Source of the DNA: an uncultured Nitrospira sp. | Lineage (GTDB): Bacteria > Nitrospirota > Nitrospiria > Nitrospirales > Nitrospiraceae | DNA: 64,000 bases | Reading direction: 5' to 3' | NCBI GenBank assembly: GCA_902500775.1 | Contig: CABVRZ010000023.1 | Coordinates: 1-64,000 of the forward strand | In this document: piece by piece, positions 4,083-58,364 of the stretch | Position numbering within the stretch: the stretch's first letter is position 1 | Layout of the letters: each line of letters begins with the position of its first letter | The notes under the pieces: model-generated | The model's input: only the letters and a program-made list of their open reading frames with translations | What the model was told of the DNA's origin: nothing | Databases searched by the model: none | Program-made: the position numbers and the translations under genes

Positions 4083-4099
4083 CATTTTCTCGCGAGCTG

Positions 4100-4129
4100 T
4101 TGTCAATATGTGCAAGCCTGTGTTAACAT
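4100..4129 (+). promoter_or_regulatory. Candidate sigma-70-type promoter for ftsH
   Basis: TTGTCA at 4100-4105 (five of six consensus positions) is separated by 18 bases from TAACAT at 4124-4129 (four of six). It lies in the 99-base gap between hpt and the ftsH start and would give a leader of roughly 45 bases. Seen by eye only. It would let ftsH be expressed apart from the upstream genes. Confidence 0.4.
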
Positions 4130-4181
4130 CACCACAATTCCTAGACACTTTCCATCCAACGTTATTGCCAAGGAGAACTGG

Positions 4182-36957: not shown

Positions 36958-36991
36958 TACAGCACGTCTTGTGAGGTGCCGAAAAGCCGAT

Positions 36992-37022
36992 GAGGGGCTC
37001 CACTTAGGGGCCCCTCTTTTTT
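36992..37022 (+). terminator. Intrinsic terminator of the pilin gene
   Basis: The 7-bp stem GAGGGGC (36992-36998) / GCCCCTC (37010-37016) is followed directly by six T residues. It is the clearest rho-independent terminator in the window and lies 35 bases after the pilin stop. Confidence 0.85.
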
Positions 37023-37060
37023 AATTCTGCGACCAGTCTGTGTCGCAAAACAAAACTTTC

Positions 37061-37089
37061 TTGACGGTTCATCCCGTTCAATTTAACGT
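37061..37089 (+). promoter_or_regulatory. Weak candidate promoter for the ligase-like operon
   Basis: TTGACG at 37061-37066, a 17-base spacer, then TAACGT at 37084-37089. The -35 is five of six, the -10 only three of six. It lies after the pilin terminator and 70 bases before the next gene, where a promoter is expected. Confidence 0.3.
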
Positions 37090-37158
37090 ATTTTTGTGTG
37101 GCTCGATCGGCTACATGTCTAGATATATCCCGCGAATATTGGCGGGGATCCTGATCCA

Positions 37159-39180: not shown

Positions 39181-39192
39181 GTTCGGCGTGTG

Positions 39193-41000: not shown

Positions 41001-41764
41001 ATCGGATGTTTGCCATTGCCTCCAACACATTCAAGGAAAATCTACGAGATAAGATTCTCTACAATCTTGTTTTTTTTGGTTTACTGTTGATTGGAGGCTC
41101 CGTTCTCCTTGGAAGCTTGGCAATAGGAGAACAAGGCAAGATCATAAAAGATCTTGGATTGGCAAGCATCAATGTCTTCGGAATCCTGATCGCAATCTTT
41201 GTCGGAATCGGATTAGTCAGTAAGGAAATTGAGAAACGGACGATCTACACCATAATTGCCAAACCCATCCCTCGCTATCAGTTCCTTCTTGGACGATACT
41301 CAGGTCTTGTTCTCACCCTTGTTGTTAACATCGCCATCATGACAATAGGGTTTTTTGCCACGCTCATGCTGGCCGGGATTGGTTTTGATGGAGGGCTTTT
41401 GAAAGCCATCGCCATGATCGTTCTGGAACTGCTTCTAATTGTTGCCGTGGCCGTAATGTTCTCAACGTTCACGACCCCCACCCTGAGCGCGACATTTACC
41501 TTGGCGATCTATGTCATTGGGCATATGACGGAGGATCTACAAGTGTTGGCCAATAAGCTCGAGAACCCGGTGATCAGCTGGACATTCAACGCCCTGTACT
41601 ATGGCCTTCCAAACCTTGGGTACTTCAATGTCAAGGGTGAAGCCGTGCATGGTTCTCCGATTAGCATGAACTACCTGCTACTCACGACAAGCTATGGGAT
41701 TGCCTACACGGCACTTCTCATGATTGCCGCCAGTCTGATTTTTCAACGACGGGATTTTAAATAG
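40997..41764 (+). CDS. ABC-2 type transporter permease (PilI-like)
   Basis: A 255-residue integral membrane protein with about six membrane segments, opening with MNRMFAIASNTFKENLRDKILYNL, which is typical of ABC-2 permeases of the NatB/NosY sort. The cytoplasmic coupling helix VSKEIEKRTIYTIIAKPIPRYQFLLGRY interacts with the ATPase in relatives. It overlaps the ATPase gene by four bases, so the pair forms one exporter. It closes the operon; a 433-base gap follows. Confidence 0.85.
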   Translation: MNRMFAIASNTFKENLRDKILYNLVFFGLLLIGGSVLLGSLAIGEQGKIIKDLGLASINVFGILIAIFVGIGLVSKEIEKRTIYTIIAKPIPRYQFLLGRYSGLVLTLVVNIAIMTIGFFATLMLAGIGFDGGLLKAIAMIVLELLLIVAVAVMFSTFTTPTLSATFTLAIYVIGHMTEDLQVLANKLENPVISWTFNALYYGLPNLGYFNVKGEAVHGSPISMNYLLLTTSYGIAYTALLMIAASLIFQRRDFK

Positions 41765-42197: not shown

Positions 42198-44897
42198 ATG
42201 GTGAGTGGTCGGCTATGGTTTAGAGTGATAGACGTGAGCCTCATGTTTACGTTAACCGGGCTGGCCTGCGCCGTTGCCATGAGCCGTCGGATCTGCCAAC
42301 TGGCTGGGTTGTGCCGAGTAGCAGAGAGTTTCGATGGACTTCCCAAAAGAGTGGTTTGCATCATTCATGATCTTGGTTGTGGGGGAGCACAGAGACAATT
42401 GGTTTTATTCTTAACCCACCTCAATCGCACACAATGGCTTCCTGAAGTTGTTGTGATGGATAGGACTGATGCGTTTTTTGCTCAAGAACTTGAGCAGTTA
42501 GGTATACCCATCGTTCAGATTCCACCGCACCCAATACTCTGGAGCACTGTCATCTGGCGGCTAGCCATACATCTGAGGAAGAACCCTTGTCATATTCTCC
42601 ACAATTGGCTCCCCAATTCAATACACGCTGGTGCCATAGCAGGAACAATAATCGGTGTTCCGGTGATCATCGCTGCGGTGCGTAGCGAGGCCCCTGATTG
42701 CGTCGCGGAGAAGGTGGAGCCGTGGCGACGCACGATGGATAGAATCACAGCAAAGCTGAGTACCGTTTTCATCGGAAACTGTCATGCCGTTTGTTCCACC
42801 ACTCGATCGTGGGCGCGCGTGCCTTGGAATCGAATGGAACTGGTATACAACGGGGTGGCGCAAGCCTCAATCCCGGACATGACTCAAACCATGCGCCGGC
42901 AGCTACGTGCTCAAATGGGCATGCACCCAGACGTACCAACCGTCGGGATCATCGCTCGGCTAGACGAGGACAAGGATCATGTCACCTTTCTGCGTGTGGC
43001 ACAAGAACTCCACACACAGAGGCCTGATGTTCGGTTTGCCATCATTGGAGATGGACCGCTGCGCGAGGATCTAAACCAGGTGATCGTTCAGTGGAAGATG
43101 CAAGAGTATGTCACGATGCACGGTCGTTCATCCGACGTGTCACGCATGATGCAGCTGTTGGATATTATCGCATTGACATCGGTTTCAGAAGGATGCCCCA
43201 ACGTGCTTCTCGAGGCCGCATCGTTAGGAGTGCCGGTGGTTACAACAGCGGCAGGGGGAGCTGCCGAATTGGTTGTGGACGGCGAGACGGGATTTGTCGT
43301 GCCATGTCAGGACAGCAGAGCCATGGCGGATCGGATCATCGAGCTGATTGACAATCCAACTATGCGTAACTCTTTCATTGAGCGGTCTCGGCTTCGTGCC
43401 AGAAGTGAATTTTCACCGCATAAGATGGTTGCAAACATCGATCATGTTTACCGACGTGCACTGGCACGAAAAGCTGTCCTTAAACCGATCGAGAGTCCGC
43501 TACGCGTCTGCTTTGTTATGTCTCAAGCGTATGGTGTCTTCCGTCCTCGTTCAGATAGGGTATTCGGTGGAGCTGAAGTTCAGGTGGCCAATCTGGCAAA
43601 ACGGTTGGTCCAACAAGGGAACTGTAACGTCTATGTTGTAACGGGTGAACATCAGCGAAGAGGCACAGAAGAAATTGACGGCGTCACGGTCATACTAGAT
43701 CCTTTCTGTGCACCAAGTTACGCTTCCTCCGCGCCTTCCAATCCCTCACACCCACACCTCAATAATAATTCCCGATCGACACTAGTGGAGTGGGGCTACC
43801 GGTGGCTTGCGTGGTGCCCACCACCTCTTCGTGACCTCTCGCGCTGGCTCGTTCGTGGAGGAGTCAAAGGTAAATGGGTGTTGCGTCACGTGTTTCCCAT
43901 TGACTGGTGCGTCCGTACATATCGCAATATTCAGTTACTGCGCCAGTGGATTCATCTTTTCCGTTCCATTGATGCTGATATCTACGTCACACGTTGTGCC
44001 GGCACAGCAGTTGGTTTTATGCAGCTGGCCTGCTCATTCATCAGACGGCCCTTTGTATACATGGTGGCGCATGACATGGATGTGTCAGGGGAATATATCG
44101 CCGCTTATCCGATCGAGGGGAAATGGTTTGGGAGAGGGCTGCGCCACGCGGATGTCGTGATCTGCCAGAATGAGACACAAGCTAATCTACTATTCAGACA
44201 GCATGGTCGGCACGGTAGCGTGATTCCGTCGCTCTGTCCATTTGAAATTTCCACAGAGCTCGATCACGCATATCGCACATCAGTCCTCTGGATGGCACGG
44301 GTCGATGATTGGAAACAGCCGGAATTATTCATTGAGCTGGCGTCTCGCATTCCTGATCAGCATTTCACCATGGTGGCTGTCGCAAGCCAAGTGAGCCCCA
44401 CACAACTGGATATTCTTCATAAAGCGGCTCAAAGAACTCCCAACCTCACCATACGACCGGCGGTACCACTGCACGAGACCATTAAGCTGTTCCAGAACGC
44501 GGCAGTGTTTGTGAACACATCGAAAGTGGAGGGGTTCCCCAATACGTATATGCAAGCAGCCGCATCAGGGACGCCCATCGTGTCATGGGCGGTAAACCCA
44601 GACGGCATGTTAGAGCGCTATGCGATCGGCTTTTGCGCGGAGCAAGATTGGCTACGGTTTGAACAAGCAGTCCAACGGCTCTGCAGCGATCGTGCACTGC
44701 GGGAACGAATGGGGCAGAACGGGTTGGATTACGTGAACCATCGGCATCATCCTGAAAACATCGCAGCAACATACCTGACGTTTTTTTCTGAGCTTCGGGC
44801 AGGAAAGGCTTCCCGTGAGTTCCGTGTATACCATGGTGACTACCGTAAGGAGAAGACAGGCGATGCATATTTGTCGTCTGTCAAGGCTCGATCATGA
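42198..44897 (+). CDS. Fused double GT4-type glycosyltransferase
   Basis: An 899-residue protein holding two complete GT-B glycosyltransferases. The N-terminal one (about 48-425) opens with RVVCIIHDLGCGGAQRQL and carries the retaining-enzyme motif SEGCPNVLLEAAS (two Glu eight apart) with GIIARLDEDKDH for the nucleotide site. The second (about 436-899) opens with LRVCFVMSQAYGVF and FGGAEVQVANLAKRLV; its equivalent motif is KVEGFPNTYMQAAAS, with Gln for the second Glu. The second half is clearly related to the separate gene at 51875. A hydrophobic N-terminus may belong to a later start (ATG 42243 or 42279). Cytoplasmic face, glycan assembly inferred. Confidence 0.88.
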   Translation: MVSGRLWFRVIDVSLMFTLTGLACAVAMSRRICQLAGLCRVAESFDGLPKRVVCIIHDLGCGGAQRQLVLFLTHLNRTQWLPEVVVMDRTDAFFAQELEQLGIPIVQIPPHPILWSTVIWRLAIHLRKNPCHILHNWLPNSIHAGAIAGTIIGVPVIIAAVRSEAPDCVAEKVEPWRRTMDRITAKLSTVFIGNCHAVCSTTRSWARVPWNRMELVYNGVAQASIPDMTQTMRRQLRAQMGMHPDVPTVGIIARLDEDKDHVTFLRVAQELHTQRPDVRFAIIGDGPLREDLNQVIVQWKMQEYVTMHGRSSDVSRMMQLLDIIALTSVSEGCPNVLLEAASLGVPVVTTAAGGAAELVVDGETGFVVPCQDSRAMADRIIELIDNPTMRNSFIERSRLRARSEFSPHKMVANIDHVYRRALARKAVLKPIESPLRVCFVMSQAYGVFRPRSDRVFGGAEVQVANLAKRLVQQGNCNVYVVTGEHQRRGTEEIDGVTVILDPFCAPSYASSAPSNPSHPHLNNNSRSTLVEWGYRWLAWCPPPLRDLSRWLVRGGVKGKWVLRHVFPIDWCVRTYRNIQLLRQWIHLFRSIDADIYVTRCAGTAVGFMQLACSFIRRPFVYMVAHDMDVSGEYIAAYPIEGKWFGRGLRHADVVICQNETQANLLFRQHGRHGSVIPSLCPFEISTELDHAYRTSVLWMARVDDWKQPELFIELASRIPDQHFTMVAVASQVSPTQLDILHKAAQRTPNLTIRPAVPLHETIKLFQNAAVFVNTSKVEGFPNTYMQAAASGTPIVSWAVNPDGMLERYAIGFCAEQDWLRFEQAVQRLCSDRALRERMGQNGLDYVNHRHHPENIAATYLTFFSELRAGKASREFRVYHGDYRKEKTGDAYLSSVKARS

Positions 44898-45077: not shown

Positions 45078-46994
45078 ATGTGTGGAATCGCCGGACAGCT
45101 CAATTTTGATCGCACACCAGTTCTGCCTCAGCGCATTGCCGCTATGGGTGCCAGTCTACGCCACCGCGGCCCCGACGATGCGGGGATCTATGTGCACGGC
45201 GAAATTGGCCTTGCCCACCAACGGCTGAGCATCCTCGATCTGAGTCCAGCTGGGCATCAACCCATGCCAAATGAGGACGAAACCGTCTGGGTCACGTTTA
45301 ATGGTGAGATTTATAACTTTGAAGAATTGCACAGACAACTCCGTGACCGGCATACCTTTCGCTCACGAACAGATACGGAAGTCATCGTTCATCTCTACGA
45401 AGAATACGGGCTGGGCTGTGTGGCCATGTTACGTGGGATGTTTGCAATCGCGATTTGGGACGCACGCAAACATCGGCTCCTATTGGCCAGAGATCGGGTC
45501 GGCAAAAAACCGCTGTACTATACACAGGGGAAAGACAGCCTTGTCTTTGCATCGGAGCTCAAAGCACTGCTGGTAGGTGAGCAGCCTTACGATGTTGACC
45601 CAGTGGCACTACATCACTATCTCACCTTCCAGTACGTTCCAGCGCCATGGTCGATTTTCACGGGAATTAAGAAACTTAGCCCAGGCCATATTCTTGTCTG
45701 TGAGCAAGGCACGATAACCGAACAGACTTATTGGACTCTGTCCTATCATGAACATCCCAGGCCTCGCAGCGAACAGGATTACAAAGAAGAGTTTCTCTCG
45801 CTCCTACGAGAGTCAACGCGGTTGCGTCTGGCCAGCGATGTACCCTTGGGTGCTTTCTTGAGTGGAGGGCTCGATTCGAGCACCGTCGTGGCGCTAATGA
45901 GTGAGCTTACGACACAACCGGTAAAAACCTTCTCCGTCGGTTTTAAGGAAGATGCATTTAACGAACTGCCCTATGCACGAGAAGTGGCAGCACAATTTCA
46001 CACAGACCATCATGAGCTCATTGTTGAGGATTCTGCCATCGATATACTACCCACATTAGCTCGTGTGTTTGATGAGCCATTTGCGGATTCATCTGCCATA
46101 CCGACGTACTATCTATCCCAGCTGACCAGAAAGTTTGTCACCGTTACCTTGAACGGCGATGGGGGTGACGAGCTGCTTGCAGGTTATCCCAGATACCACC
46201 TTTCGGCTTTAGATCTTGCACTACAGGAATGTCCGATATCGATGCGAAAGCGAATCGCGCATATGATCCACTGCTTGCCGGCGACCAGCGGTCTGCTCGC
46301 GGCGTTACAGAATAGATTGGAACGATTAAGCCAACCGTTCAGCCATACATACCTTGGACGTATTTGCTTTTTTGGACCTGAGGAGAAAGACGAACTCTAT
46401 ACCACGGAGTTTAGTCGCGCAGTATTGAATGATAACTCGCTCGATCTTCTCACCGACTGGTTCGATCGCGTGACGGCAACTGGCCTCCGTAACCGGCTAC
46501 TGGGTGTCGATACAATGAGTTATTTGCCTGATGACTTGCTGGTTAAGGTCGATCGTGCAACGATGGCACATGGTCTGGAGGCACGATCACCATTTCTAGA
46601 TCACCATGTATTGGAATTCTGTGCCGCTCTACCGACTGACTATAAGATTAGGGGTGGAGTATCAAAGTATCTTTTAAAAACAGTGATGAGGGACAGGCTC
46701 CCACCAGTCGTCCTTCAACGATCAAAGATGGGATTTGGCGTGCCAATCGATCAATGGTTTCGTGGATCGTGCCGAACGCTCGTCGAGGACATCCTATTGT
46801 CTTCTCGATGTTTGCAACGAGGGTATTTCAAGCCTGACCTCATTCGTCGCCTGGTTGAAGAACAGCATCAAGGCCGGACAAGTTATGGGTCGCGTGTCTA
46901 TGCACTCTTGATGCTGGAACTGTGGCACCGAGAATATGTGGATCGTACGGATTGGAATCGGTTGAGTGAACCGGAGATCCGCGCTGTTGCATGA
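45078..46994 (+). CDS. AsnB-type glutamine amidotransferase (first copy)
   Basis: A 638-residue class II amidotransferase. The nucleophile is Cys2 after Met removal (MCGIAGQL); the glutaminase domain has RHRGPDD and NGEIYN; the synthetase domain has the PP-loop SGGLDSS at 262-268. The enzyme activates a carboxylate by adenylation and amidates it with ammonia from glutamine. Asparagine is the textbook product, but in O-antigen and capsule loci such proteins (for example WbpS) are linked to amidation of sugar acids. Placement between a glycosyltransferase and the exporter favours that role. Confidence 0.88.
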   Translation: MCGIAGQLNFDRTPVLPQRIAAMGASLRHRGPDDAGIYVHGEIGLAHQRLSILDLSPAGHQPMPNEDETVWVTFNGEIYNFEELHRQLRDRHTFRSRTDTEVIVHLYEEYGLGCVAMLRGMFAIAIWDARKHRLLLARDRVGKKPLYYTQGKDSLVFASELKALLVGEQPYDVDPVALHHYLTFQYVPAPWSIFTGIKKLSPGHILVCEQGTITEQTYWTLSYHEHPRPRSEQDYKEEFLSLLRESTRLRLASDVPLGAFLSGGLDSSTVVALMSELTTQPVKTFSVGFKEDAFNELPYAREVAAQFHTDHHELIVEDSAIDILPTLARVFDEPFADSSAIPTYYLSQLTRKFVTVTLNGDGGDELLAGYPRYHLSALDLALQECPISMRKRIAHMIHCLPATSGLLAALQNRLERLSQPFSHTYLGRICFFGPEEKDELYTTEFSRAVLNDNSLDLLTDWFDRVTATGLRNRLLGVDTMSYLPDDLLVKVDRATMAHGLEARSPFLDHHVLEFCAALPTDYKIRGGVSKYLLKTVMRDRLPPVVLQRSKMGFGVPIDQWFRGSCRTLVEDILLSSRCLQRGYFKPDLIRRLVEEQHQGRTSYGSRVYALLMLELWHREYVDRTDWNRLSEPEIRAVA

Positions 46995-47132: not shown

Positions 47133-47906
47133 ATGCACATTGTCAAGATGGCACAGCTAGTCTTGAACCTCGCTTGGCATGAATTACGGGCTCAGCGTAA
47201 AGATACGTTATTGGGATGGGGGTGGGTTGTTCTGTGGCCTGTCCTTCAGGCTGCCGGACTTCTCTTTGCCGTAAACGTACTCAGGGGAAACACCGGCATT
47301 CCAAGCATGCGAGCGATGCTGATCACCTATTTGGGAGTCTTGGTCTGGACCACAAGTGTGGCTGTCATTGTGAGTAATCTCGGACTTCTTCAAGCGCATC
47401 GCGAAATGATTCTTCATATCCGCTTCCCATTCATTGTTCTCCCAATCGTCGATGTCACCGTGAAATTTGCAACCTTTCTTATCCAAATTGTGATTGGTGT
47501 AAGTTTATGGTTATGGCTGGTTCCTCAAGTGGCATGGCCATTGATACTCGTATGTGCGATTGTGTTCGTCGTGAGTTTTTATTTCGCACTCATTACGACG
47601 GCCTGGATTACCTCGCTCCTTGGGCTGGCAGTTCCAGATCTGTCTTTTATTTTGCCACCGGCATTCTTATTGCTGCTGACGATCTCGCCGGTGTTTCATC
47701 TTGGTGCGAATCTGCCCCCTGCTGCGCAGTATCTTGATAACCTCAACCCGCTTTCTTTTTTCATAAGCTCTTGGTATGCCGCGATAGATGCACAGGCAGT
47801 CGGTGCACACTTACCGTGGACATTCTTGATTGCCACCACGCTCGCGCTGCCAGCCGCATATAAAGTCTCCACAGCTATGTACCGTGAAGTTGCAAAAGTT
47901 TTGTAG
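47133..47906 (+). CDS. wzm: Polysaccharide ABC exporter permease (Wzm-like)
   Basis: A 257-residue ABC-2 permease with about six membrane segments. The opening is the typical cytosolic amphipathic stretch LAWHELRAQRKDTLLGWGWVVLWPVLQAAGLL, and the family pattern SFILPPAFLLLLTISPVFHL and LNPLSFFI lies near the C-terminus. With the adjacent Wzt it would flip an undecaprenyl-linked, fully assembled glycan to the periplasmic side of the inner membrane. Wzt starts 11 bases after its stop. Confidence 0.88.
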   Translation: MHIVKMAQLVLNLAWHELRAQRKDTLLGWGWVVLWPVLQAAGLLFAVNVLRGNTGIPSMRAMLITYLGVLVWTTSVAVIVSNLGLLQAHREMILHIRFPFIVLPIVDVTVKFATFLIQIVIGVSLWLWLVPQVAWPLILVCAIVFVVSFYFALITTAWITSLLGLAVPDLSFILPPAFLLLLTISPVFHLGANLPPAAQYLDNLNPLSFFISSWYAAIDAQAVGAHLPWTFLIATTLALPAAYKVSTAMYREVAKVL

Positions 47907-47917
47907 GTCATTGGCAA

Positions 47918-49246
47918 ATGTCTGACCGAATGTGCCTCACACCAGGAGCAATCAGTGTCAACGATCTCGTTGTTGAGTATCCAATATACCGCCAGATGAT
48001 TTGGGACCGTTTCTGCGCATTGCTTGGGATGGCCTTCCCTGCCTATAAACCACCTGTTCGCAGGGTCTTGGATCGTATTTCTTTGTCAATACGACCAGGA
48101 GAGACTGTTGCGCTAGTGGGCCGCAACGGAGCAGGCAAGACATCATTGCTCAAAGTGATCTCGGGTCTTTTGAGCCCCACGGCTGGCACGGTGCAGGTGA
48201 ATGGACGGATCATGGCGCTTTTGGCGATGGGGATTGGCTTCAGACCTACGTTTACTGGCAGAGAAAACCTCGTATACTGCGGTCTTCTGTTAGGTCTCGA
48301 CCGTCACCAGACCCTGGCACTGATCCCAACAATTGTTGAGTTTGCTGAACTAGAGCCCGCCATTGATCAACCCTTGTTTACCTATTCATCAGGCATGAAG
48401 GCACGCTTGGCTTTTGCACTGGCTGTTGCCATACCTGCCGACATTTTTATTCTCGATGAAACTCTAGCAGTCGGAGATGCCAAGTTTGTGACGAAATGTT
48501 ATCGGCGCCTGCGTGAAATTGAACAATCGGGTAAGACCATTTTGATGGTCTCACACCAACTTGGCGAGATCGCCAGAGTGGCATCGCGTATAGTAGTCAT
48601 TGACAGAGGAGCCATCCTATATGATGGAAATATGCTTGATGGTTTACGCCTGTACGAGGAGACGTTGATAGACACGGTCGTGGAAGACGGTGCGCACTCT
48701 GATGACTCCGGTTCTCTTCGTATTTCGATCCAGATTTATAACGAACATGCTGAAGCAGTGAGCTCCGTGAACATAGGAGAGCAAGTCAGCATGGTACTGA
48801 CGATGGAAGCCCCTCACGATATGGGAGAACGGTTTGTCGTGCTTCGTCTGACCGATATTGGGCGTGGACAGTTGTGTTCCTACCTGATGCCAAGTCGTTG
48901 GAATACGCTCAGAAACCAACGTGCGGTTGGTGACGACAATATTTTTGTGGGCGCGGGAACAACACGGGTAACGTGGGAAATTCCTCACTGGGTGGGAGGA
49001 GAAGGGCTTTACTCGTTCGATGTCTACCTTGGCCCACCAACGCATATTGCAACATTAGATCTGTCACAAGGACGCTTTTGGACGGCTGTCGCCAAAATTG
49101 CCGTCCGTTGCAAAAACGTGTGGCTAAAGGGGAGTTCAACTGCCATCGAAATCCCAGTCAGCGACGTCCGTATAGCCCGTGATGGCCGGCTGTTGGCTCC
49201 ATTTGCGGGTACACAGGCTACCGATGAATCATCGCGTGCCGCATGA
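47918..49246 (+). CDS. wzt: Polysaccharide ABC exporter ATPase with glycan-binding domain (Wzt-like)
   Basis: A 442-residue protein. The N-terminal ABC domain has Walker A GRNGAGKT at 68-75, the signature YSSGMKARLAFA, and Walker B IFILDETLAVGDA. From about 255 a strand-rich Wzt_C-like domain follows (ISIQIYNEHAEAVSSVNIGEQVSMVL to VGGEGLYSFDVYLG). In E. coli O8/O9a such domains recognise the capped non-reducing end of the finished glycan before export. Three methyltransferase genes follow directly, consistent with a methyl cap being read here. Confidence 0.9.
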   Translation: MSDRMCLTPGAISVNDLVVEYPIYRQMIWDRFCALLGMAFPAYKPPVRRVLDRISLSIRPGETVALVGRNGAGKTSLLKVISGLLSPTAGTVQVNGRIMALLAMGIGFRPTFTGRENLVYCGLLLGLDRHQTLALIPTIVEFAELEPAIDQPLFTYSSGMKARLAFALAVAIPADIFILDETLAVGDAKFVTKCYRRLREIEQSGKTILMVSHQLGEIARVASRIVVIDRGAILYDGNMLDGLRLYEETLIDTVVEDGAHSDDSGSLRISIQIYNEHAEAVSSVNIGEQVSMVLTMEAPHDMGERFVVLRLTDIGRGQLCSYLMPSRWNTLRNQRAVGDDNIFVGAGTTRVTWEIPHWVGGEGLYSFDVYLGPPTHIATLDLSQGRFWTAVAKIAVRCKNVWLKGSSTAIEIPVSDVRIARDGRLLAPFAGTQATDESSRAA

Positions 49247-49256
49247 GAATCTAATC

Positions 49257-50066
49257 ATGGCCTTTACCGGCATGCATAGGATGCGCAACATTGCGCGTAG
49301 TCTTTTGGGCCGACAAGGCTTTCCAACACCTCTAGGAAATGTGACTCCAGAACCACACCGATCTGCGGAGAACGAAGAAAGACGGAAGATTTGGGAGACA
49401 GTGCAGCCATATACGATGGTCCCTGAGCCAGCAATCGATTTTTTGATCGACCAAGTGATTACACTTCTTACCAGTAGGGTGTCAGGCGTCTTGGTAGAGT
49501 GTGGTGTTTGGCGGGGGGGATCCAGCATGGCAATGCTTCTAGCCCAACAAGCAGCATTTGGGCGAGTGGAACGCCCCGTCTACATGCTAGATAGCTTTCA
49601 AGGGTTACCTCCAGTGACGGCTAAAGATGGACCGCTGGCCAGCAAATGGCAGCAAGGAGCTGATCCTGAAAACTTTCTCGATAACTGCCGAGCAGTCCGA
49701 GAAGAAGTGGACCATGCCCTTGCCCGCATGGGTTTCGTACCAGGCGATTATACGATTGTCGAAGGTTGGTTCGACCAGACCGTCCCTCGTCTAGCGGAAG
49801 ATATTTCCCCAAATTCAATTGCCCTCCTTCGTCTTGACGGCGATTGGTATGATTCTACGCGCTGTTGCTTGGACACTCTTATGCCGTTGGTCTCGGAAGG
49901 TGGCGTGGTAATTATTGACGATTATTATGCCTGGGATGGCTGTGCGCGCGCCGTACACGACTATTTATCGAGCCACGACGTCGCATATCGGATCCGGTCG
50001 CTCCCTCAGTGGTACGGAGCCTATTTCATCAAGAAAGCGGCCAGAGACAGATTTGATGTCCTATGA
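49257..50066 (+). CDS. TylF-like sugar O-methyltransferase
   Basis: An SAM-dependent methyltransferase of the TylF (macrocin O-methyltransferase) family, with VECGVWRGGSSMAM for SAM, MLDSFQGLP, and LRLDGDWYDST plus VVIIDDYYAWDGC for the metal-linked catalytic Asp residues. Family members methylate sugar hydroxyls on secondary metabolites or glycans. The frame opens at 49179, inside wzt; ATG 49224 and ATG 49257 are both possible, and 49257 was chosen because it follows the wzt stop. Overlaps the next methyltransferase by four bases. Confidence 0.8.
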   Translation: MAFTGMHRMRNIARSLLGRQGFPTPLGNVTPEPHRSAENEERRKIWETVQPYTMVPEPAIDFLIDQVITLLTSRVSGVLVECGVWRGGSSMAMLLAQQAAFGRVERPVYMLDSFQGLPPVTAKDGPLASKWQQGADPENFLDNCRAVREEVDHALARMGFVPGDYTIVEGWFDQTVPRLAEDISPNSIALLRLDGDWYDSTRCCLDTLMPLVSEGGVVIIDDYYAWDGCARAVHDYLSSHDVAYRIRSLPQWYGAYFIKKAARDRFDVL

Positions 50067-50872
50067 GCATTTCGGACGACTCACCGAACATGATTACGTG
50101 GACTCCTGAATTGGTTGAGCGGTTTTGGACAGGTGTGGCCAATACACGGCTGTCCGAAATAAACAGTTCCCGCAATTGCGCTGACCGATTACTAGAGCTG
50201 GTCGCGCCACACTTAAATCCGGTCGGTCGGTTCTTAGACTATGGAGCTGGTGATGGTGACCTTGTTGCTGCAATGGTACAGAAGGGATATCGGACAGCGG
50301 CCTATGAACCCAATAGGAGCCGATCAAGTAAATTACCTCGCGCGATCATCGAGCACCCGAACTTTCTGGGAGTTGTGTCAGAGCACACTCGGGAACCGTT
50401 TGATGGCGTGTTGATGATCGAGGTCATCGAACATATCCTCGACCCACAGGTGAATGACGTATTCCAGCATGTGCGGAGTGTTCTGAAACGCGACGGTCAC
50501 CTCATCGTGACCACTCCATTCACAGAAGATTTAGAGCTCAACGGTGCCTTCTGTCCGTCATGTCACACACATTTCCATCGTTGGCAACACGTTCGATCTT
50601 TCCATCCTGATACGCTGAATGACTTTATGTCCCAACAAGGCTTTTACTGCGAGTCACAGCGTGTTGTTGATTTCTCGAATAACCGCCACATGGTGGAAGA
50701 GTTGAATGTCATGAATGCCGAGATTGATCGCTTGCATGCGGTCATCGCCCAGTCTTTTTGTGAACGAATCAAACGTCTGTTCGGCGGGAAGACCGAACAC
50801 CGAAAAAGATACCCTCGCGTGTCGCTTCTCGATCTCCCGACCAACATCGTGTATGTGGGCCGCCTGGCCTGA
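50063..50872 (+). CDS. Class I SAM-dependent methyltransferase
   Basis: A 269-residue protein with motif I FLDYGAGDGDLVAAM, the acidic YEPN strand end, and LMIEVIEHILDP before GHLIVTTPF, the usual Rossmann methyltransferase layout. An extra segment FCPSCHTHFHRWQHVRSF with two Cys and several His resembles related sugar or lipid methyltransferases in glycan loci. Acceptor unknown. Coupled to the TylF-like gene (ATGA) and followed after 14 bases by another methyltransferase, so all three are likely one transcript. Confidence 0.82.
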   Translation: MSISDDSPNMITWTPELVERFWTGVANTRLSEINSSRNCADRLLELVAPHLNPVGRFLDYGAGDGDLVAAMVQKGYRTAAYEPNRSRSSKLPRAIIEHPNFLGVVSEHTREPFDGVLMIEVIEHILDPQVNDVFQHVRSVLKRDGHLIVTTPFTEDLELNGAFCPSCHTHFHRWQHVRSFHPDTLNDFMSQQGFYCESQRVVDFSNNRHMVEELNVMNAEIDRLHAVIAQSFCERIKRLFGGKTEHRKRYPRVSLLDLPTNIVYVGRLA

Positions 50873-50886
50873 CGCACTACTGACAG

Positions 50887-51645
50887 ATGTTTTCCATTGA
50901 ATTTCTCAACGTTGTTCGCGACTACGAAATCAGAAAAATTGTACCGCATTTATCGCCTGGTGCCTCAGTGTTGGAAATCGGTGGCGGGACAGGTTGGCAG
51001 GCCAAGCAACTGGCCGATCGAGGGTTTGCCGTTACCTCGATCGATGTACAAGATTCCAACTATAGAGCTAACAAGGTGTTTAACGTCGTCATTTATGATG
51101 GCAAACGATTCCCGTTTGACGAACCCACGTTTGACCTCATCTTCTCTTCAAATGTTCTTGAGCACATTGGCGATCTTGACCAGCTTCACCGCGAGAGCCG
51201 ACGAGTGCTGAAGGCAAACGGGTATTGTGTCCATGTCATGCCGACAGGCGTCTGGCGGTTCTGGACGTCCATTGCGCACTACGTAGAGATGGTGCAACGC
51301 TTGGGAGCCCTTCTACCAACGTTGATCCCCGAGACTGTTCATCCACGAGAGATTCTTCGACCCCTGAGGGTCTTCAGAATGGCATGGTCGATACTCCGTC
51401 AGTATCGTGTACCTCCCAGGCATGGTGAAACTGGTAATGCCCTGTCTGAAATTTGGACGTTTAGCACCAGGTATTGGATGAAGCATTTTAACAGTCATGG
51501 CTTTGACATCATTGATCATCAGCCATTGGGGCTGTTCTACACAGGACATATGGTTCTAGGAAGCCGCTGGGGGAACACCTCTCGTGAACAGGCTGCAAAG
51601 ATTCTGGGAAGCGCCTGCACGCTCTTTAAGCTGAGGCCCAAATGA
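50887..51645 (+). CDS. Class I SAM-dependent methyltransferase
   Basis: A 252-residue protein with motif I VLEIGGGTGWQAKQLADRG, an acidic strand end SIDVQDSNY, and LIFSSNVLEHIGDL followed by VLKANGYCVHVMPTG, the Methyltransf_11 pattern. The C-terminal half, rich in Arg and Trp, is probably the acceptor-binding part. It ends the methyltransferase trio. A 229-base gap with nothing recognisable separates it from the next glycosyltransferase. Substrate is inferred to be a sugar of the exported glycan. Confidence 0.82.
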   Translation: MFSIEFLNVVRDYEIRKIVPHLSPGASVLEIGGGTGWQAKQLADRGFAVTSIDVQDSNYRANKVFNVVIYDGKRFPFDEPTFDLIFSSNVLEHIGDLDQLHRESRRVLKANGYCVHVMPTGVWRFWTSIAHYVEMVQRLGALLPTLIPETVHPREILRPLRVFRMAWSILRQYRVPPRHGETGNALSEIWTFSTRYWMKHFNSHGFDIIDHQPLGLFYTGHMVLGSRWGNTSREQAAKILGSACTLFKLRPK

Positions 51646-51874: not shown

Positions 51875-53074
51875 GTGTCACAAGCAGTGGAAGTTTCTGG
51901 AGTTATTCCTCAGCTTGGGAAAGTGTGTTTTATCTCCCCCTTGGGATATGGCCTGTACAATCCAGCCAGCGCCTATCCGTTCGGAGGTGCTGAAGTACAA
52001 TTCTTCCTCCTTGCTCGGCAACTCGCTGAAGATGTGAGGTTTGAGGTGTCGGTGCTGACCACTGTGAGAGAGGGCAGCAGTAGCGAGCCGTATGGATCAT
52101 TGAGAATATTCAAGCGCACCGCTCAAGGTCGCCTCTCCGTACCACCGAAGATGACGATGATGACCGCTGCAAAACTGTTCGGTGGTTTTATCGAGGCGTT
52201 TCTGAGTATGGCACGCCAATTCCGACAGATTGGCGCCGATGTGTATTTCCATGCTGGGGCGGGCGTAGAAGTAGGGGCCTACGCCTTGTTGTGCCGTCTG
52301 ATGAGGAAACGATTTACCTTTGTCGTGGCCTCTTCGGTTGATGTATCGACTCCCTACGGACTGGTCACTGGTCCCTTGAAATGGTTGTTCCCATTGGGTG
52401 TTCGATTGGCCCACGCTGTCGTTTGCCGGACAGAAGATCAGCAACGGTCGCTTCAGGAGAGATATGGGCACAGAGGGGTATTGATACGAACGGCACACCC
52501 TTTGCCACAGAGGCGAGATATTCCAAAGTCGTATGTCCTTTGGGTCGGAAGGGGACACCCACTCAAACAGCCAGAGATCTTCATTGGCTTGGCGGCTCGA
52601 CTGCCGGAACAACAATTCGTGATGGTGGTTTCCAGAGAAGAAAGACACAGCGACCTCTTCAAACAGCTACGGAACCAGGTGAGGACATTGCACAATATCG
52701 AGTTCCGTGAAAATGTGCCCTGGTGTGAGATGAGCCAGCTATTTGAGGGTGCGTGCCTGCTCGTGAATACCTCGTTGTATGAAGGGTTTCCTAATACGTT
52801 CGTTGAGGCCGCATTGTCTGCAACACCGGTGGTATCCCTCAGCGTCGATCCTGATGAAATCCTAACAAAACAGCTCATCGGGGTCTGTGCTGAAGGAAGC
52901 ACTGAAAGACTCTATGAGTTGACGAGTGCCTTGTTGCACGATCCGCCACGCATAATCCGTCTTGGCAGATCCGCGCAATCGTATGCGTTGCAACATCATG
53001 GTTTGGAGAATGCGCTCCATCGCCTGAAAGACCTGATCAGGACGCTTACTGGACAGCCATATGGTGCCGGTTGA
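51875..53074 (+). CDS. GT4-type glycosyltransferase
   Basis: A 399-residue GT-B retaining glycosyltransferase, GTG start. It opens with KVCFISPLGYGLYNPASAYPFGGAEVQ and carries SLYEGFPNTFVEAALS with both conserved Glu residues. It is a paralogue of the second half of the fused enzyme at 42198: FGGAEVQ, VLWxxRxDxxKQPE-like (VLWVGRGHPLKQPEIFIGLAARLPEQ) and LLVNTSLYEGFPNT match closely. The donor and acceptor sugars cannot be told. It overlaps the next glycosyltransferase gene by one base. Confidence 0.85.
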   Translation: MSQAVEVSGVIPQLGKVCFISPLGYGLYNPASAYPFGGAEVQFFLLARQLAEDVRFEVSVLTTVREGSSSEPYGSLRIFKRTAQGRLSVPPKMTMMTAAKLFGGFIEAFLSMARQFRQIGADVYFHAGAGVEVGAYALLCRLMRKRFTFVVASSVDVSTPYGLVTGPLKWLFPLGVRLAHAVVCRTEDQQRSLQERYGHRGVLIRTAHPLPQRRDIPKSYVLWVGRGHPLKQPEIFIGLAARLPEQQFVMVVSREERHSDLFKQLRNQVRTLHNIEFRENVPWCEMSQLFEGACLLVNTSLYEGFPNTFVEAALSATPVVSLSVDPDEILTKQLIGVCAEGSTERLYELTSALLHDPPRIIRLGRSAQSYALQHHGLENALHRLKDLIRTLTGQPYGAG

Positions 53075-54207
53075 TGAGCCGTCTCAATCTTTGCTTTATC
53101 GGGCCCGCTGAGAACATCACCACGCGACGCTGGGTGGAGTGGTTTACAGCTCGAGGACATACGACAACTGTAGTGACTGTTGAACCGACACAGCATATAC
53201 ATCGCTTTAGGCAGATTGATCTGAGCTGTTCCACTGGCGGACGAAAGATAGGACGGATCATTGCGGCAGCACGTTTAGGTCATGTCGTGCGTCAGGTGCG
53301 CCCAGATGTCCTACATGTTCACTACGTGAGGGGATTTGCATGGGGTATTCCATTCGTTCCGTCTTGTCCAATCGTGGCCTCTCCATGGGGCAGTGATGTC
53401 TTAGACGAACAGGGAGCTTTTAAGGAATGGTATAGCCGGTGGTTGACCCGACACGTGTTGGCATCCGCAGATCTCGTCACGGTGCACTCTCGCTATATGG
53501 AACATCGGGTGCGCCCACTCTTACCGCAGGGGAGTCGTATGGTCCGGATCGGATGGGGAATCAATTTGCAGGCGTTCAAACCAGACTTGGATGTGACGAT
53601 TCTTCGCGCGCGCTGGCAACTTAGCCCAGAGCATCAGGTGATTTTCAGCCCCCGTTTGGCACAACCCTGCTATCGGCATGACCTGATCATCCGTGCGTTC
53701 TCGCTCGTGCGAAAAGACAATCCGCATGCCGTCCTGATACTACCGGAACAATTCGCGAACCACGAATACATGCGGCAGCTACACACATTGGTCTCAGAGC
53801 TCAGTCTCAGTCCTTGGGTGATGTTTATAGGAGCTATCCCATATCCGGATATGCCCTTATGGATGAACCTTGCCGATGTCATGGTGATGGCTCCAGAATC
53901 CGACGGAATGCCCAATAGTTTGTTGGAGGCCATGGCTTGCGGTGCATTTCCCGTGTTGAATCAATTACCACAATACGCAGAAATCATCCATGACGGAATC
54001 AATGGCCTGCTTGCTCCCGATAATCCAGAAGATATAGCTCGTGCGTTGCTCCGCGCGTTGTCAAGTCAACGCCTGAGATCAGACGCCGCCTCGTTGAATA
54101 GAGAGTTCATAAAGACGGAAGCTGATCAAGACCAAGAGATGGCCCGAATGGAAGCTTGGTATGAGGACCTCCGAAGAGGGACCAGCCAACGGCATCAGAG
54201 GACGTAA
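53074..54207 (+). CDS. GT4-type glycosyltransferase
   Basis: A 377-residue GT-B enzyme. The N-terminal domain (LNLCFIGPAENITTRRWVEWFTARGH) binds the acceptor and the C-terminal domain holds HQVIFSPRLAQPCYRHDLIIRAF and PESDGMPNSLLEAMACG, where Asp replaces the usual first Glu of the EX7E motif. Start at ATG 53074 (TGATG overlap with the previous gene) preferred over TTG 53071. It ends four bases before the second AsnB gene. Substrate unknown; part of the glycan assembly line. Confidence 0.82.
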   Translation: MSRLNLCFIGPAENITTRRWVEWFTARGHTTTVVTVEPTQHIHRFRQIDLSCSTGGRKIGRIIAAARLGHVVRQVRPDVLHVHYVRGFAWGIPFVPSCPIVASPWGSDVLDEQGAFKEWYSRWLTRHVLASADLVTVHSRYMEHRVRPLLPQGSRMVRIGWGINLQAFKPDLDVTILRARWQLSPEHQVIFSPRLAQPCYRHDLIIRAFSLVRKDNPHAVLILPEQFANHEYMRQLHTLVSELSLSPWVMFIGAIPYPDMPLWMNLADVMVMAPESDGMPNSLLEAMACGAFPVLNQLPQYAEIIHDGINGLLAPDNPEDIARALLRALSSQRLRSDAASLNREFIKTEADQDQEMARMEAWYEDLRRGTSQRHQRT

Positions 54208-54211
54208 TAGC

Positions 54212-56137
54212 ATGTGTGGAATTGCAGGAATCGTGAGCTTGAGCGGACGTCTGTTTGACGCGTATACGCTCGAAGCCATGACCCGCTCCTTAGCACATCG
54301 GGGTCCTGACGGAGAGGGGTATGTACTGCTTGCTCACCAGAGAGCAGAGAAGCCAATTACGGCAGTCGGGCGACTAACCGATTCACTACCATCGGTTTGT
54401 CATGGGTACGCGATAGGATTGGGCCATCGTCGCCTTGCAATTCTTGATCGTTCCGCCTTAGGCCATCAACCGATGGGGTCTGAAGACGGAGCCATCTGGA
54501 TCACCTATAACGGTGAACTTTATAACTACATTGAGCTTCGTGATGAACTGAGGCGTTTGGGATGGCAGTTTCGATCCATGACCGATACGGAGGTTGTCCT
54601 GCGATCCTATCAGCAATGGGGAACGGAGTGCCTGAATCGTTTCAATGGCATGTTCGCATTTGCCATATGGGATGGGTTACTGGGCCGCCTGTTTTGTGCC
54701 AGAGATCGACTTGGGATCAAGCCCTTCTATTTTCGAACAACATCCGATGGCATGATGTTCAGCTCAGAAATCAAAGCCTTACTTCAGGACCCGACCTATG
54801 TCCGGTCTGTGAACAGAAAAGCCGTGCATGACTTCTTGCTCCTTGGCCTGCAGGACCATACCGAGGGCACGTTTTTTTCAGACGTCTCGCAATTGCGCGC
54901 AGGGCACGCTTTGGTGCTCGATCAAGAACGACTACAGGTATATCGCTGGTGGGACTTACCACCATCACAGCCGGATGACGGGATGGAAGACGGTGTGGCA
55001 GCAGAGTCTCTTCGCACACTGTTTCAGGACGCCATTCGCCTTCATCTTAGAAGCGATGTGGCGGTGGGAAGTTGCCTGAGCGGTGGGTTGGATTCATCAT
55101 CGATCGTATGTGCCATGCGGCAAGCACTCCCAAACCAGTTGATCAAGACATTTTCGGCGTATTTCGATGATGCAAGGTATGACGAGCGGCACTATGCAAA
55201 CGCAGTGGTCCGTCAGAGTGCCGTACAGTCCGTATTTATTTCACCGGATGCACAACACCTCTTTGAGGAGCTTCCCCTGATGTTGTGGTATCAAGATGAA
55301 CCCTTCAGCGGGGCGAGCTACTTAGTACAGTGGGCTGTGATGAAAACCGCTTCAGAACATGGAATGAAAGTGTTATTGGACGGTCAAGGCGGTGATGAGC
55401 TGTTGTGCGGCTATCCTGGCTACTGGGGCTCGCACATTGGAGATCTGCTCTCATCGTTTTCACTTGGCAGTGCATGGAGCGCCTTGAATGCCACCTATCG
55501 ACGCCAATCCAAATTTGACCTGCTGGTAGCTTCGAATTGTACCAGGGCACTGCTGCCAGCGCCGCTGGTTTCACGGTGCCGCTCATGGATGAAAGCGGAT
55601 GCAAGCTGGGTCAGTCCGGAGTTTGTTTCGTGCTATCCAATCAACCCCGGATATGAGAGTCGATATCCCACCGCACTGGAGAATCATGTCGCGGCCTATT
55701 TGCAGACACACAGCCTTCCCGCTCTCCTGCATCATGAGGACAGGAGCTCTATGGCTTTCTCGATTGAAGCGAGACTGCCCTTCCTGGACACAAGGCTCGT
55801 GGATCGCCTGTGGACATGGCCAGCTAGACTTAAGCTTCGAGCCGGTGTGAACAAGTTTGTCATGCGTGAGGCCATGAAAGGGCTTGTGCCGGAACAAGTC
55901 CTACGGCGTCAGGACAAGATGGGTTTTGCCACTCCTCAAGACAGTTCGCTGTGTAACGTATGGCGTCCCGAGTTGGAAGCTCTCTTCTCGTCTCCTGCCT
56001 GTGCTCAGCGCGAGTATTGGGACTCGAGTCGATTACAACACTCGTATAGACAGTATTGCACGGGCGACTTAGACATCGGCACGAGCATGTGGCGTTGTAT
56101 GACGTTGGAGCTCTGGCATCAGCAGTGGCACGTATAA
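54212..56137 (+). CDS. AsnB-type glutamine amidotransferase (second copy)
   Basis: A 641-residue class II amidotransferase with Cys2 nucleophile (MCGIAGIVSLS), RHRGPDGEG-type loop (LAHRGPDGEGY), NGELYNY, and the PP-loop SGGLDSS at 290-296. The start at 54212 is fixed by the requirement for Cys at position 2; the open frame begins earlier at 54161. It is clearly diverged from the copy at 45078 (for example an insertion AEKPITAVGRLTDSLPS in the glutaminase domain). Two different AsnB proteins in one glycan locus suggest two distinct carboxylate substrates. True asparagine synthesis cannot be excluded for either. Confidence 0.87.
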   Translation: MCGIAGIVSLSGRLFDAYTLEAMTRSLAHRGPDGEGYVLLAHQRAEKPITAVGRLTDSLPSVCHGYAIGLGHRRLAILDRSALGHQPMGSEDGAIWITYNGELYNYIELRDELRRLGWQFRSMTDTEVVLRSYQQWGTECLNRFNGMFAFAIWDGLLGRLFCARDRLGIKPFYFRTTSDGMMFSSEIKALLQDPTYVRSVNRKAVHDFLLLGLQDHTEGTFFSDVSQLRAGHALVLDQERLQVYRWWDLPPSQPDDGMEDGVAAESLRTLFQDAIRLHLRSDVAVGSCLSGGLDSSSIVCAMRQALPNQLIKTFSAYFDDARYDERHYANAVVRQSAVQSVFISPDAQHLFEELPLMLWYQDEPFSGASYLVQWAVMKTASEHGMKVLLDGQGGDELLCGYPGYWGSHIGDLLSSFSLGSAWSALNATYRRQSKFDLLVASNCTRALLPAPLVSRCRSWMKADASWVSPEFVSCYPINPGYESRYPTALENHVAAYLQTHSLPALLHHEDRSSMAFSIEARLPFLDTRLVDRLWTWPARLKLRAGVNKFVMREAMKGLVPEQVLRRQDKMGFATPQDSSLCNVWRPELEALFSSPACAQREYWDSSRLQHSYRQYCTGDLDIGTSMWRCMTLELWHQQWHV

Positions 56138-56151
56138 CTGGCATGTGAGAC

Positions 56152-57321
56152 ATGTTGCTCCGACCAAAACCACGCGTTCTACTCGTAACAGTCGGGCTCG
56201 ATGTCGGCGGGACCGAAAGCCAAATATTGGAGATTGCAGGCCGTTTAAATTGTGAACGGTTTGAGGTTCTGGTCTGCGCGTTGAAAGGGGAGGGCACCAT
56301 CGGGGATGAAATGCGGAATCGAGGGATCCGAGTGATCACACTCAATGGATCCGGTCGGATGGATCCTCGAGTCCTAACTCGGCTGTCCCGTCTGATCCAC
56401 ACTGAACGCCCCGATATCGTCCATTCTTTTCTCCCCATCGCCAACTATGCTGCAGTGATCGTCGGCTTTCTGTTACGCGTTCCGATCCTCGTGGCTTCTT
56501 ACCGCGCTGTCGAGCCATGGCGAAAGGTGCCTGGAATATGGCTAGACCGGCTGGTCGTCAAACTCGTGAAACGAATCACCTGTTGTTCGGATGCCGTTCG
56601 TTCGTTCGCGATTCAAAGATTCGGAGGGGATCAAGCAAAGTACATGACCATCTACAATGGGATTGATATTGAACGGTTTCGTCATGGAACAGCGACCAAG
56701 AAAGCTCTCTTAGGACTCCAAGAGACCATGGCAACCATAGGGACAGTCTGTCGGCTTGATGAGCCTACCAAAGGAATCGCGGTCTTATTGGTGGCCATCT
56801 CGCAGCTCAAAGCCATGAAGCAGATCCCTCCCTTTCAGTTGGTGATCATTGGAGAAGGTCGCTCAGCCGAAACATTATGCCAATTGAGAGATGATTTAGC
56901 ACTCTCCGAAATTGTCATATTCGCTGGCCTGCGACGTGATGTCGACCGTATCCTTCCGCTCTTGGACCTCTTCGTATTGCCTTCCCTTTCCGAAGGATTT
57001 GGCATTGCACTGATAGAAGCCATGGCTTCCGGCTGCCCCGTCGTCGCAACAGCAGTTGGTGGCATTCCAGAAATTGTATCGTCAACACACACAGGCCTGT
57101 TGGTCCCAGCAGGAGATGCAGCTGCCCTCGCGCACGCGCTTGCGGATTTATTGTGCAACCAAGATAAATCTCGGAGGCTTGGAAGGGCTGGACAAGAATG
57201 GGCGTGCGCGAACTTTTCCGTATCGACTATGGTGAAGCATCATGAGCGCCTTTATGAGCAACTTCTAGAGACCGTGATGTCAGGCAATGAGCGAACCGAG
57301 AAGAACACCGTCCGAGTATGA
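56152..57321 (+). CDS. GT4-type glycosyltransferase
   Basis: A 389-residue GT-B enzyme. N-terminal VLLVTVGLDVGGTESQILEIAGRL is the classic acceptor-domain start, TIYNGIDIERF marks the domain junction, and SLSEGFGIALIEAMASGCPVVA carries both conserved Glu residues. It resembles the N-terminal half of the fused enzyme at 42198 (ASYRAVEPWRKVPGIWLDRL vs AAVRSEAPDCVAEKVEPWRR). It overlaps the WecA-like gene by four bases, so it may add an early sugar to the lipid-linked acceptor. Confidence 0.87.
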   Translation: MLLRPKPRVLLVTVGLDVGGTESQILEIAGRLNCERFEVLVCALKGEGTIGDEMRNRGIRVITLNGSGRMDPRVLTRLSRLIHTERPDIVHSFLPIANYAAVIVGFLLRVPILVASYRAVEPWRKVPGIWLDRLVVKLVKRITCCSDAVRSFAIQRFGGDQAKYMTIYNGIDIERFRHGTATKKALLGLQETMATIGTVCRLDEPTKGIAVLLVAISQLKAMKQIPPFQLVIIGEGRSAETLCQLRDDLALSEIVIFAGLRRDVDRILPLLDLFVLPSLSEGFGIALIEAMASGCPVVATAVGGIPEIVSSTHTGLLVPAGDAAALAHALADLLCNQDKSRRLGRAGQEWACANFSVSTMVKHHERLYEQLLETVMSGNERTEKNTVRV

Positions 57322-58364
57322 TGCTTCTAACACTCACATTGGTTCTCGCGTTTATGCTTTCCCTCTACGGCGTCCCTATCGCCCGACAGGCAGCACTAAA
57401 GTTCGGCATCGTCGATGCCCCTGACGGACGCCTCAAACACCAGAAAGAACCCGTCCCATACTTCGGAGGACTGGCGATCTATCTGGCCTTCTTAATGAGT
57501 CTCGCATTCACGTTTGAATTTCGGCACGACGTGCTCGGGATCATTCTCGGTGCGACCATCGTGGTCATGCTGGGACTTATCGATGATTTTGGCGTGCTCT
57601 CGCCGACGACGAAGCTGATTGGACAACTCCTTGCCGTGTTTGTCTTAATCAAGAGCGGGATCCGCATTCAAATCGCGGCACTGCCGGAATGGGTAGACCT
57701 CGCATTGACGGTATTGTGGATGGTCGGGCTCATCAATGCCTTCAACCTCTTGGATATCATGGATGGCCTTTCTGCCGGGATCGGAGCCGTGAGCGCAACC
57801 TGCTTACTCCTGGCAGCCTTACTCCAGGGGGATCAGGTTGTCGCCTTCATGCTTGCCGCGTTGATCGGAAGCCTCGTCGGCTTTCTGAAATATAATTGGC
57901 AACCGGCTCGGATTTATATGGGTGACACAGGCGCCATGTTCATCGGCTTATTGCTAGGGGCCATGGCGATGATCGGGCAATTTCCAAGCACACACCCGCT
58001 ATCGCTACTCACCCCCGTGTTCATCCTGGGGATTCCAATCTTTGATACCCTCTTCGTCATGTATATCCGCTATCAACGAGGCCTCCCGATCTTCCTCGGC
58101 AGCCCGGACCATATTGCTATTCGACTCCGACAGTGGGGGATGTCGACCAGACAGATCGTGGTCGTCAGTTATCTCGCAACCGCCGTTGTTGGGGTCGTCG
58201 GGCTCATGCTCATGATGGTGACCTATGAGGTCGCATGGGGCCTGTGTCTTGGGACCGTTGGAATACTCCTCGTCCTGACGTTGACGCTGAAACGAATCGA
58301 GGTCAGGAAAGTCAGACGTGTGGAGGTTGAGACCTCCTTAGAAGAAAGAAGGCGAGCGGCATGA
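57318..58364 (+). CDS. WecA/MraY-family undecaprenyl-phosphate sugar-1-phosphate transferase
   Basis: A 348-residue polytopic membrane enzyme that transfers a HexNAc-1-phosphate from a UDP-sugar to undecaprenyl phosphate, starting glycan assembly. About eleven membrane segments; motifs LIDDFGVLSPTTKL (metal-binding Asp pair), NAFNLLDIMDGLSAG, IYMGDTGAMFIGLLLG and SPDHIAIRLRQWG (HxxxR-type loop) are present. WecA (GlcNAc-1-P) is the closest description; the exact sugar is not predictable. Overlaps the flavoprotein gene by four bases. Confidence 0.87.
   Translation: MMLLTLTLVLAFMLSLYGVPIARQAALKFGIVDAPDGRLKHQKEPVPYFGGLAIYLAFLMSLAFTFEFRHDVLGIILGATIVVMLGLIDDFGVLSPTTKLIGQLLAVFVLIKSGIRIQIAALPEWVDLALTVLWMVGLINAFNLLDIMDGLSAGIGAVSATCLLLAALLQGDQVVAFMLAALIGSLVGFLKYNWQPARIYMGDTGAMFIGLLLGAMAMIGQFPSTHPLSLLTPVFILGIPIFDTLFVMYIRYQRGLPIFLGSPDHIAIRLRQWGMSTRQIVVVSYLATAVVGVVGLMLMMVTYEVAWGLCLGTVGILLVLTLTLKRIEVRKVRRVEVETSLEERRRAA

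Follow-up and report, generated by a model that had tools for sequence, protein, structure and literature searches.

A Wzm-Wzt exporter followed by three methyltransferase genes in Nitrospira: a possible variant of methyl-cap export with a divergent Wzt reader domain

Methyl caps that are read by Wzt, the ATPase of an ATP-binding cassette (ABC) exporter of glycans, have been described for E. coli O8/O9a, Klebsiella and Aquifex. A contig of an uncultured Nitrospira sp. (CABVRZ010000023.1, assembly GCA_902500775.1) raises the question of whether the same principle is at work there. In the window, which is the stretch of 64,000 nucleotides at the start of this contig, five open reading frames (ORFs) on the plus strand at 47133-51645 encode, in this order, the permease Wzm, Wzt, a TylF-type methyltransferase and two class I methyltransferases that are here called MT5 and MT6. 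A first-pass annotation of the sequence had proposed a methyl-cap export system, with cap enzymes and reader inherited together. Tentatively, and at a little less than an even chance, we read the locus as a cluster for an ABC-dependent, O-methylated glycan, in which one methyl group, likeliest from MT5 or MT6, would be the end mark that Wzt reads. The proposed system gains from the predicted fold of the reader and from the enrichment of methyltransferases directly behind Wzt; the casting of the three enzymes as cap makers inherited with this particular reader is only partly supported, and residues of the binding pocket known from Aquifex are replaced.

The gene order and the gene families agree with the first-pass annotation (ORFs, Pfam). 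Wzm (257 amino acids, 47133-47906) scores 23.6 bits with Pfam ABC2_membrane (4.1e-5), just short of the cut-off of 26.9, and is 43-44% identical to the Wzm proteins of two related genomes, G027 and G017. Wzt (442 amino acids, 47918-49246; Pfam ABC_tran 1e-21) has a Walker A motif (GRNGAGKT), a signature motif (YSSGM), a Walker B motif (IFILDE) and an H-loop (SHQ), and its best sequence match in the PDB is Aquifex aeolicus Wzt (8dku, 8.1e-47), covering the ATPase part only. Wzm and Wzt are thus encoded together, as in ABC-dependent export. Behind them follow the genes for the TylF-type enzyme (49179-50066), MT5 (50063-50872, 269 amino acids) and MT6 (50887-51645, 252 amino acids). These genes had been described as overlapping, which is true of TylF and MT5 (4 bases, ATGA) and, if TylF starts at the GTG at 49179, also of Wzt and TylF (an alternative ATG start at 49260 is possible and would remove this overlap), but not of MT5 and MT6, which are separated by 14 bases. 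The gap between Wzm and Wzt is 11 bases.

Does Wzt carry a domain that could read a chain end? Its residues 252-442 (48671-49243) gave no Pfam match, the cut-off of 30.4 for PF14524 (Wzt_C) not being reached, and the relative of this domain in G017 (L025) stays below the same cut-off at 19.3 bits. When profiles were compared, the domain matched four other Wzt C-termini of these genomes weakly (hhalign 76%, E 2.2e-5), and a profile search of the PDB sequences returned one chance match only (E 0.15). An AlphaFold2 model, built from a two-sequence alignment and of moderate quality (mean pLDDT 69.6), has its best PDB matches in 6o14 and 8dky, both from Aquifex aeolicus (Foldseek E 1.3e-5; Z 11.9 and 11.8, root-mean-square deviation 3.0 over 127-128 residues). 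The next matches are the O12 domain 5hno (Z 9.9) and 2r5o, annotated as 'C-terminal domain of wzt' (Z 9.3), while unrelated chains score 8.9 and lower. The assignment as a Wzt-type sugar-binding domain is supported by this predicted fold, and the earlier claim that Wzt carries a glycan-binding domain is borne out by this comparison. The nearest solved domain is reported to bind a 3-O-methylated chain end (PMC9445017), and this speaks for the cap reading. The likeness to the Aquifex WzmWzt system (8dku, 8dky) includes the two subunits, the C-terminal fold and the hinge: Tyr233 of the Aquifex hinge helix, which is described as assisting chain binding (PMC9445017), corresponds in three MAFFT modes to Tyr246 here, just upstream of the reader domain.

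The second line of evidence is gene order. Of 77 TylF matches in the order, 10 have a Wzt C-terminal domain no more than 1.5 kb away and always stand downstream of it on the same strand, and Wzt stands within three genes of TylF in 13 of the 61 annotated loci (the remaining 16 of the 77 matches are mostly the weakest or the second matches per genome). On the TylF tree the label of being near Wzt changes six times, and at least four of these changes are forced by well-supported branches. In L075 (genome G149) the arrangement Wzm-Wzt-TylF followed by two methyltransferases is repeated, the last two enzymes being no close relatives of MT5 or MT6. As a control, 40 loci with Wzt_C were compared with 40 loci with Polysacc_synt (Wzx), drawn at random and one per genome from the listed matches with more than 6.5 kb on their low side (131 of the 150 listed for Wzt_C, 115 of the 148 typed for Wzx), so that all counts from this control hold among the matches listed. 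Enzymes neighbouring TylF served as seeds for the methyltransferase models, which were afterwards re-estimated from the ORFs of both sets pooled. The gene directly behind (position +1) is a methyltransferase at 14 of 37 Wzt loci versus 1 of 38 Wzx loci (Fisher p 1e-4). Two of the 14, in G075 and G136, were known beforehand through the TylF search, and when five near copies from one genus are taken out, 9 of 32 are left (p 0.004). The overall density of methyltransferases is equal in the two sets (46 of 426 ORFs for Wzt, 50 of 413 for Wzx), and position +2 shows no clear difference (12/31 versus 9/37). As gene order, the coupling of a methyltransferase to Wzt is real. It is worth noting that an order of AsnB, an unknown gene, a methyltransferase, TylF and another methyltransferase is conserved in Nitrospira relatives with no nearby Wzt (L067-L071, L073 and L074; in L067 the first methyltransferase was not recognised).

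The three enzymes are known to different degrees. The TylF-type protein scores 135.8 bits with PF05711 (2.2e-39; cut-off 23), matches 5i10 (1.4e-25), NovP (2.8e-23) and MycF (1.9e-22) in the PDB, and has LRLDGDWYDST and IDDYY at the places where the family has its DGDxYxST and IDDY motifs. The characterised members of this family, such as TylF, MycF and NovP, methylate sugars and serve antibiotic pathways. By family assignment the enzyme is predicted to be a sugar O-methyltransferase, which would use SAM and a metal ion to methylate a sugar hydroxyl. MT5 (Methyltransf_23, 3e-20) bears a CPxC...FHRWQHVRSF motif, and both MT5 and MT6 (Methyltransf_11, 2.9e-16) match solved structures weakly. G017 has two copies of MT6 (L024:706-1506 and 3588-4364, 61 and 56% identical to that of the window), and these flank a membrane protein of 692 amino acids that is a relative of a PMT_2-like protein in G069.

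If reader and enzymes form one system, they could be expected to travel together, as the first-pass annotation had suggested. Among 196 genomes of the Nitrospirales (MT6, MT5 and TylF counted at E<=1e-20), 3 carry the reader type, 6 carry MT5, 10 carry MT6 and 30 carry TylF relatives. The carriers of the reader type are the window's genome, G027 and G017; a search of a genome contig collection gave one locus, L037, which is contig C68 of G017, and none was found among 33 candidates in viral contigs. MT5 and MT6 are present in all three of these genomes, TylF in two. The order in G027 is Wzm-Wzt-MT5-MT6, and in G017 Wzm-Wzt-TylF is on one contig and MT5-MT6 on a separate one. Canonical readers also have these enzymes as neighbours: in G010, TylF-MT5-MT6 stand behind one (Wzt_C 5.7e-27), and in G069, MT5-MT6 are one gene away from another (Wzt_C 2e-26). 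Strict coinheritance of the reader with the three enzymes as a general rule is ruled out by G027, G010 and G069. What remains of the suggestion is that MT5 and MT6 occur in all three genomes with this reader type and that the adjacency of Wzt and TylF recurs; the three enzymes are not one unit inherited with the reader.

The clusters of G027 and G069 occupy the same chromosomal site as that of the window: both are bordered on one side by pilin, ligase-like and housekeeping genes, and on the other side G069 has an ilvD gene 89% identical to the window's. Between G069 and the window, the glycosyltransferases, the AsnB genes and MT5-MT6 correspond but the exporter does not, a pattern that an exchange of exporter or modification genes could have left. 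The Wzt tree is in line with this, as the window's clade is apart from L028, which pairs with L044 (support 99/98). Approximately unbiased (AU) tests reject joining both canonical readers, L027 and L028, to the window's clade (p 0.005), or L028 with L036 (p 0.003), but neither L028 (p 0.143) nor L027 (p 0.121) on its own, and the rejected groups were named after the tree had been seen. The tree evidence for swapping is therefore weaker than that from gene order.

Several results weigh against the reading of the locus as a cap-and-read system or against its three enzymes as the cap makers of this reader. The Aquifex domain is reported to read 3-O-methyl mannose through Leu300, Thr346, Ala348 and Trp362, plus His350 (PMC9445017). 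In three MAFFT modes that agree with each other, Leu300, Thr346 and Ala348 are replaced by Arg310, Asp368 and Tyr370 here and His350 by Gly372, and Trp362 had no stable alignment position; the four substituted residues are invariant across all three members of the reader type, and the domain as a whole is ~15% identical to that of Aquifex. The domain is thus folded, by prediction, like a cap reader, and its ligand probably differs from the 3-O-methyl-Man/Rha cap described for Aquifex (PMC9445017). The genome of G027 has no TylF at either of the two search thresholds. The MT5-MT6 pair, standing behind two other readers, has no need for this one, and a distant TylF-MT5-MT6 trio (27, 33 and 42% identical) directly follows a MurJ-type flippase in G113 (L029), a setting that has no cap reader. 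The wider MT6 family likewise adjoins MurJ-type flippases (above the Pfam cut-off in L029, L030, L040 and L041, below it in L032). When positions +1 to +3 of the control loci are pooled, the excess behind Wzt is lost (18/40 versus 14/40 for Wzx, p 0.49). Finally, a crude scan of 15 cluster proteins of the window found no coiled-coil-like stretch longer than 44 residues.

Some of this would suit a locus in which all three enzymes decorate repeat-unit or side positions and Wzt reads another end, which might be a sugar or a uronamide, and this we regard as possible but rather doubtful. One cap needs fewer than three enzymes, the pocket of the reader is polar, and in G027 and G069 a UDP-sugar dehydrogenase gene lies upstream. 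MT6 in particular has as its steadiest partner the asparagine-synthase-like amidotransferase AsnB, a relative of which was found in the examined DNA of 13 of 13 genomes with MT6. The two genes are within 6.5 kb of each other in 9 of the 12 loci that have both on one stretch, and AsnB is that close at 5 of the 40 Wzt and 8 of the 40 Wzx control loci. In the near clade of MT6 (eight sequences), ABC exporters are nearby in seven, a number that includes two G017 copies and G097, where a flippase is nearby and Wzt 14 kb off, and the eighth is on a short contig. Given this partnership and the relatives of MT6 beside flippases, MT6 probably modifies a sugar unit whatever the export route of the glycan. 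Decoration by all three enzymes leaves unexplained, however, why methyltransferases crowd directly behind Wzt and not behind Wzx. TylF alone might instead be the cap enzyme, given its place directly behind Wzt, with MT5 and MT6 as decorators: the window's TylF clade (window, G017, G010 and G075) is behind Wzt in 4/4 cases and with two different reader types. We consider this improbable, as the reader of G027 is of this type and shares the substituted residues, yet no TylF was found in that genome at the thresholds used; because of this genome, MT5 or MT6 is the likelier shared source of the signal, if any of the three is. It is just as improbable, in our judgement, that soluble molecules, lipid or protein are the substrates of the methyltransferases and that chance or operon history put these genes beside the exporter. 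Class I methyltransferases are versatile and MT5 and MT6 resemble no solved structure closely, but the adjacency is repeated in several genera, and the known substrates of TylF enzymes are sugars.

A further possibility concerns the slot behind Wzt itself. In five g30 genomes the protein at position +1 exceeds 1000 residues, and in the two of these that were scanned with Pfam a methyltransferase is joined to a family 2 glycosyltransferase (GT2) and a WbsX glycosyltransferase. Fused proteins of this kind, with 1093-1535 amino acids and a methyltransferase, a coiled-coil-like stretch and glycosyltransferase modules, are encoded at L110:6950-11068, L107:7107-10385 and L125:8154-12758. They are directly behind Wzt in L107 and L110, where they have the WbsX domain, and the third gene in L125, where there is a second methyltransferase. 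A coiled-coil-like stretch of 74-86 residues is seen in 3/3 of the fused proteins (two from g30, one from G105); this is from a second scan, also crude, which replaced a first one that could not tell the fused proteins from the others. The methyltransferase and coiled-coil layout is the one reported for known terminators, Klebsiella O7 ORF6 (PMC11231755) and WbdD (PMC3482155). It is conceivable, if unlikely as a whole, that the slot directly behind Wzt is exchangeable for chain-end methyltransferases in the Nitrospirales, that a fused, ruler-bearing terminator has been replaced here by separate enzymes with no ruler, and that the polar Arg/Asp/Tyr pocket of the reader fits a new capped end, such as a methylated uronamide in whose making AsnB takes part.

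In the S-layer glycan cluster of Geobacillus stearothermophilus, a methyl cap has been proposed as the export signal, and wzm, wzt and wsaE are reported to overlap, with the methyltransferase at the N-terminus of WsaE (PMC2943079). A methyltransferase gene is thus directly behind wzt there too; unlike the three separate enzymes of the window, one of them TylF-type, WsaE is described as a single methyltransferase fused to two glycosyltransferases. The E. coli O9a and Klebsiella O7 systems, with their terminators WbdD and ORF6 (PMC3482155, PMC11231755), are like the window in ABC-dependent export, a WecA-type start and a sugar-binding Wzt domain, but those terminators are reported to include a kinase as well as a coiled-coil ruler, and neither is seen in the window's cluster. 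In the open-licence literature we found no description of such a cluster in Nitrospira nothing on point for Nitrospira O-antigen or for TylF in O-antigen clusters, and nothing usable on the common polysaccharide antigen of Pseudomonas. Methyl-cap export as such is already known, and the separate enzymes and the divergent reader make the window a variant of it.

The genes around the exporter are those of a glycan cluster, all on the plus strand. Upstream are a glycosyltransferase of 899 amino acids with two GT4-type units (42198-44897; Pfam, synteny), whose relatives in G027, G017 and G069 have ~500 amino acids each, and the amidotransferase AsnB1 (45078-46994; Asn_synthase 2.5e-102). Downstream are two GT4-type glycosyltransferases (51875-53074 and 53071-54207; Pfam, synteny), a second amidotransferase, AsnB2 (54161-56137; TIGR01536 2.1e-127), another GT4-type glycosyltransferase (56152-57321; Pfam) and a WecA-like polyprenyl-phosphate sugar-1-phosphate transferase (57318-58364). 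The last of these is recognised as a WecA-type initiating enzyme by Glycos_transf_4 (9.1e-33), and its match to the NCBIfam WecA model (2.1e-28) is under the cut-off of that model. The AsnB1/AsnB2 pair is conserved in G027 and G069. Pfam found no flippase among the scanned cluster proteins. Farther upstream, a membrane protein with a Wzy_C/O-antigen-ligase domain and TPR repeats (37159-39180; Wzy_C 8.1e-20) is a possible ligase of the finished glycan, which it may move onto pilin or lipid A. It belongs to a block at 36430-41764 with a type IV pilin gene and an ABC-2 transporter pair, and in G075 (L036) the same block stands next to a different Wzm-Wzt-TylF cluster. Two more Wzt genes with other C-terminal domains are present in the window's genome (L033:10179-11720 and L034:9563-10918), which probably has three such exporters.

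In the cap-and-read model that we tentatively favour, these genes would serve export and modification within an ABC-transporter-dependent surface-glycan locus at a conserved chromosomal site of the Nitrospirales. Chains would be started on a lipid carrier by the WecA-like enzyme, assembled in the cytoplasm by the GT4 enzymes and given O-methyl groups by the TylF-type enzyme, MT5 and MT6. One of these groups, at the non-reducing end and likeliest from MT5 or MT6, would be read by the divergent C-terminal domain of Wzt, and Wzm/Wzt would then export the chain. We infer the methylation of the chain, the role of the methyl as end mark, the enzyme responsible for it and the need of the reader for it from the predicted fold and the gene order.

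In other respects this is an ordinary surface-glycan locus with parts that are swapped among relatives. If the model is true, cap-and-read export extends to environmental nitrifiers, with a reader that lies outside Pfam Wzt_C and has a testable ligand, and the question is posed of what would set chain length where there is no coiled-coil ruler. Cap enzymes elsewhere could be sought by the same rule of gene order, which looks for a methyltransferase directly behind Wzt.

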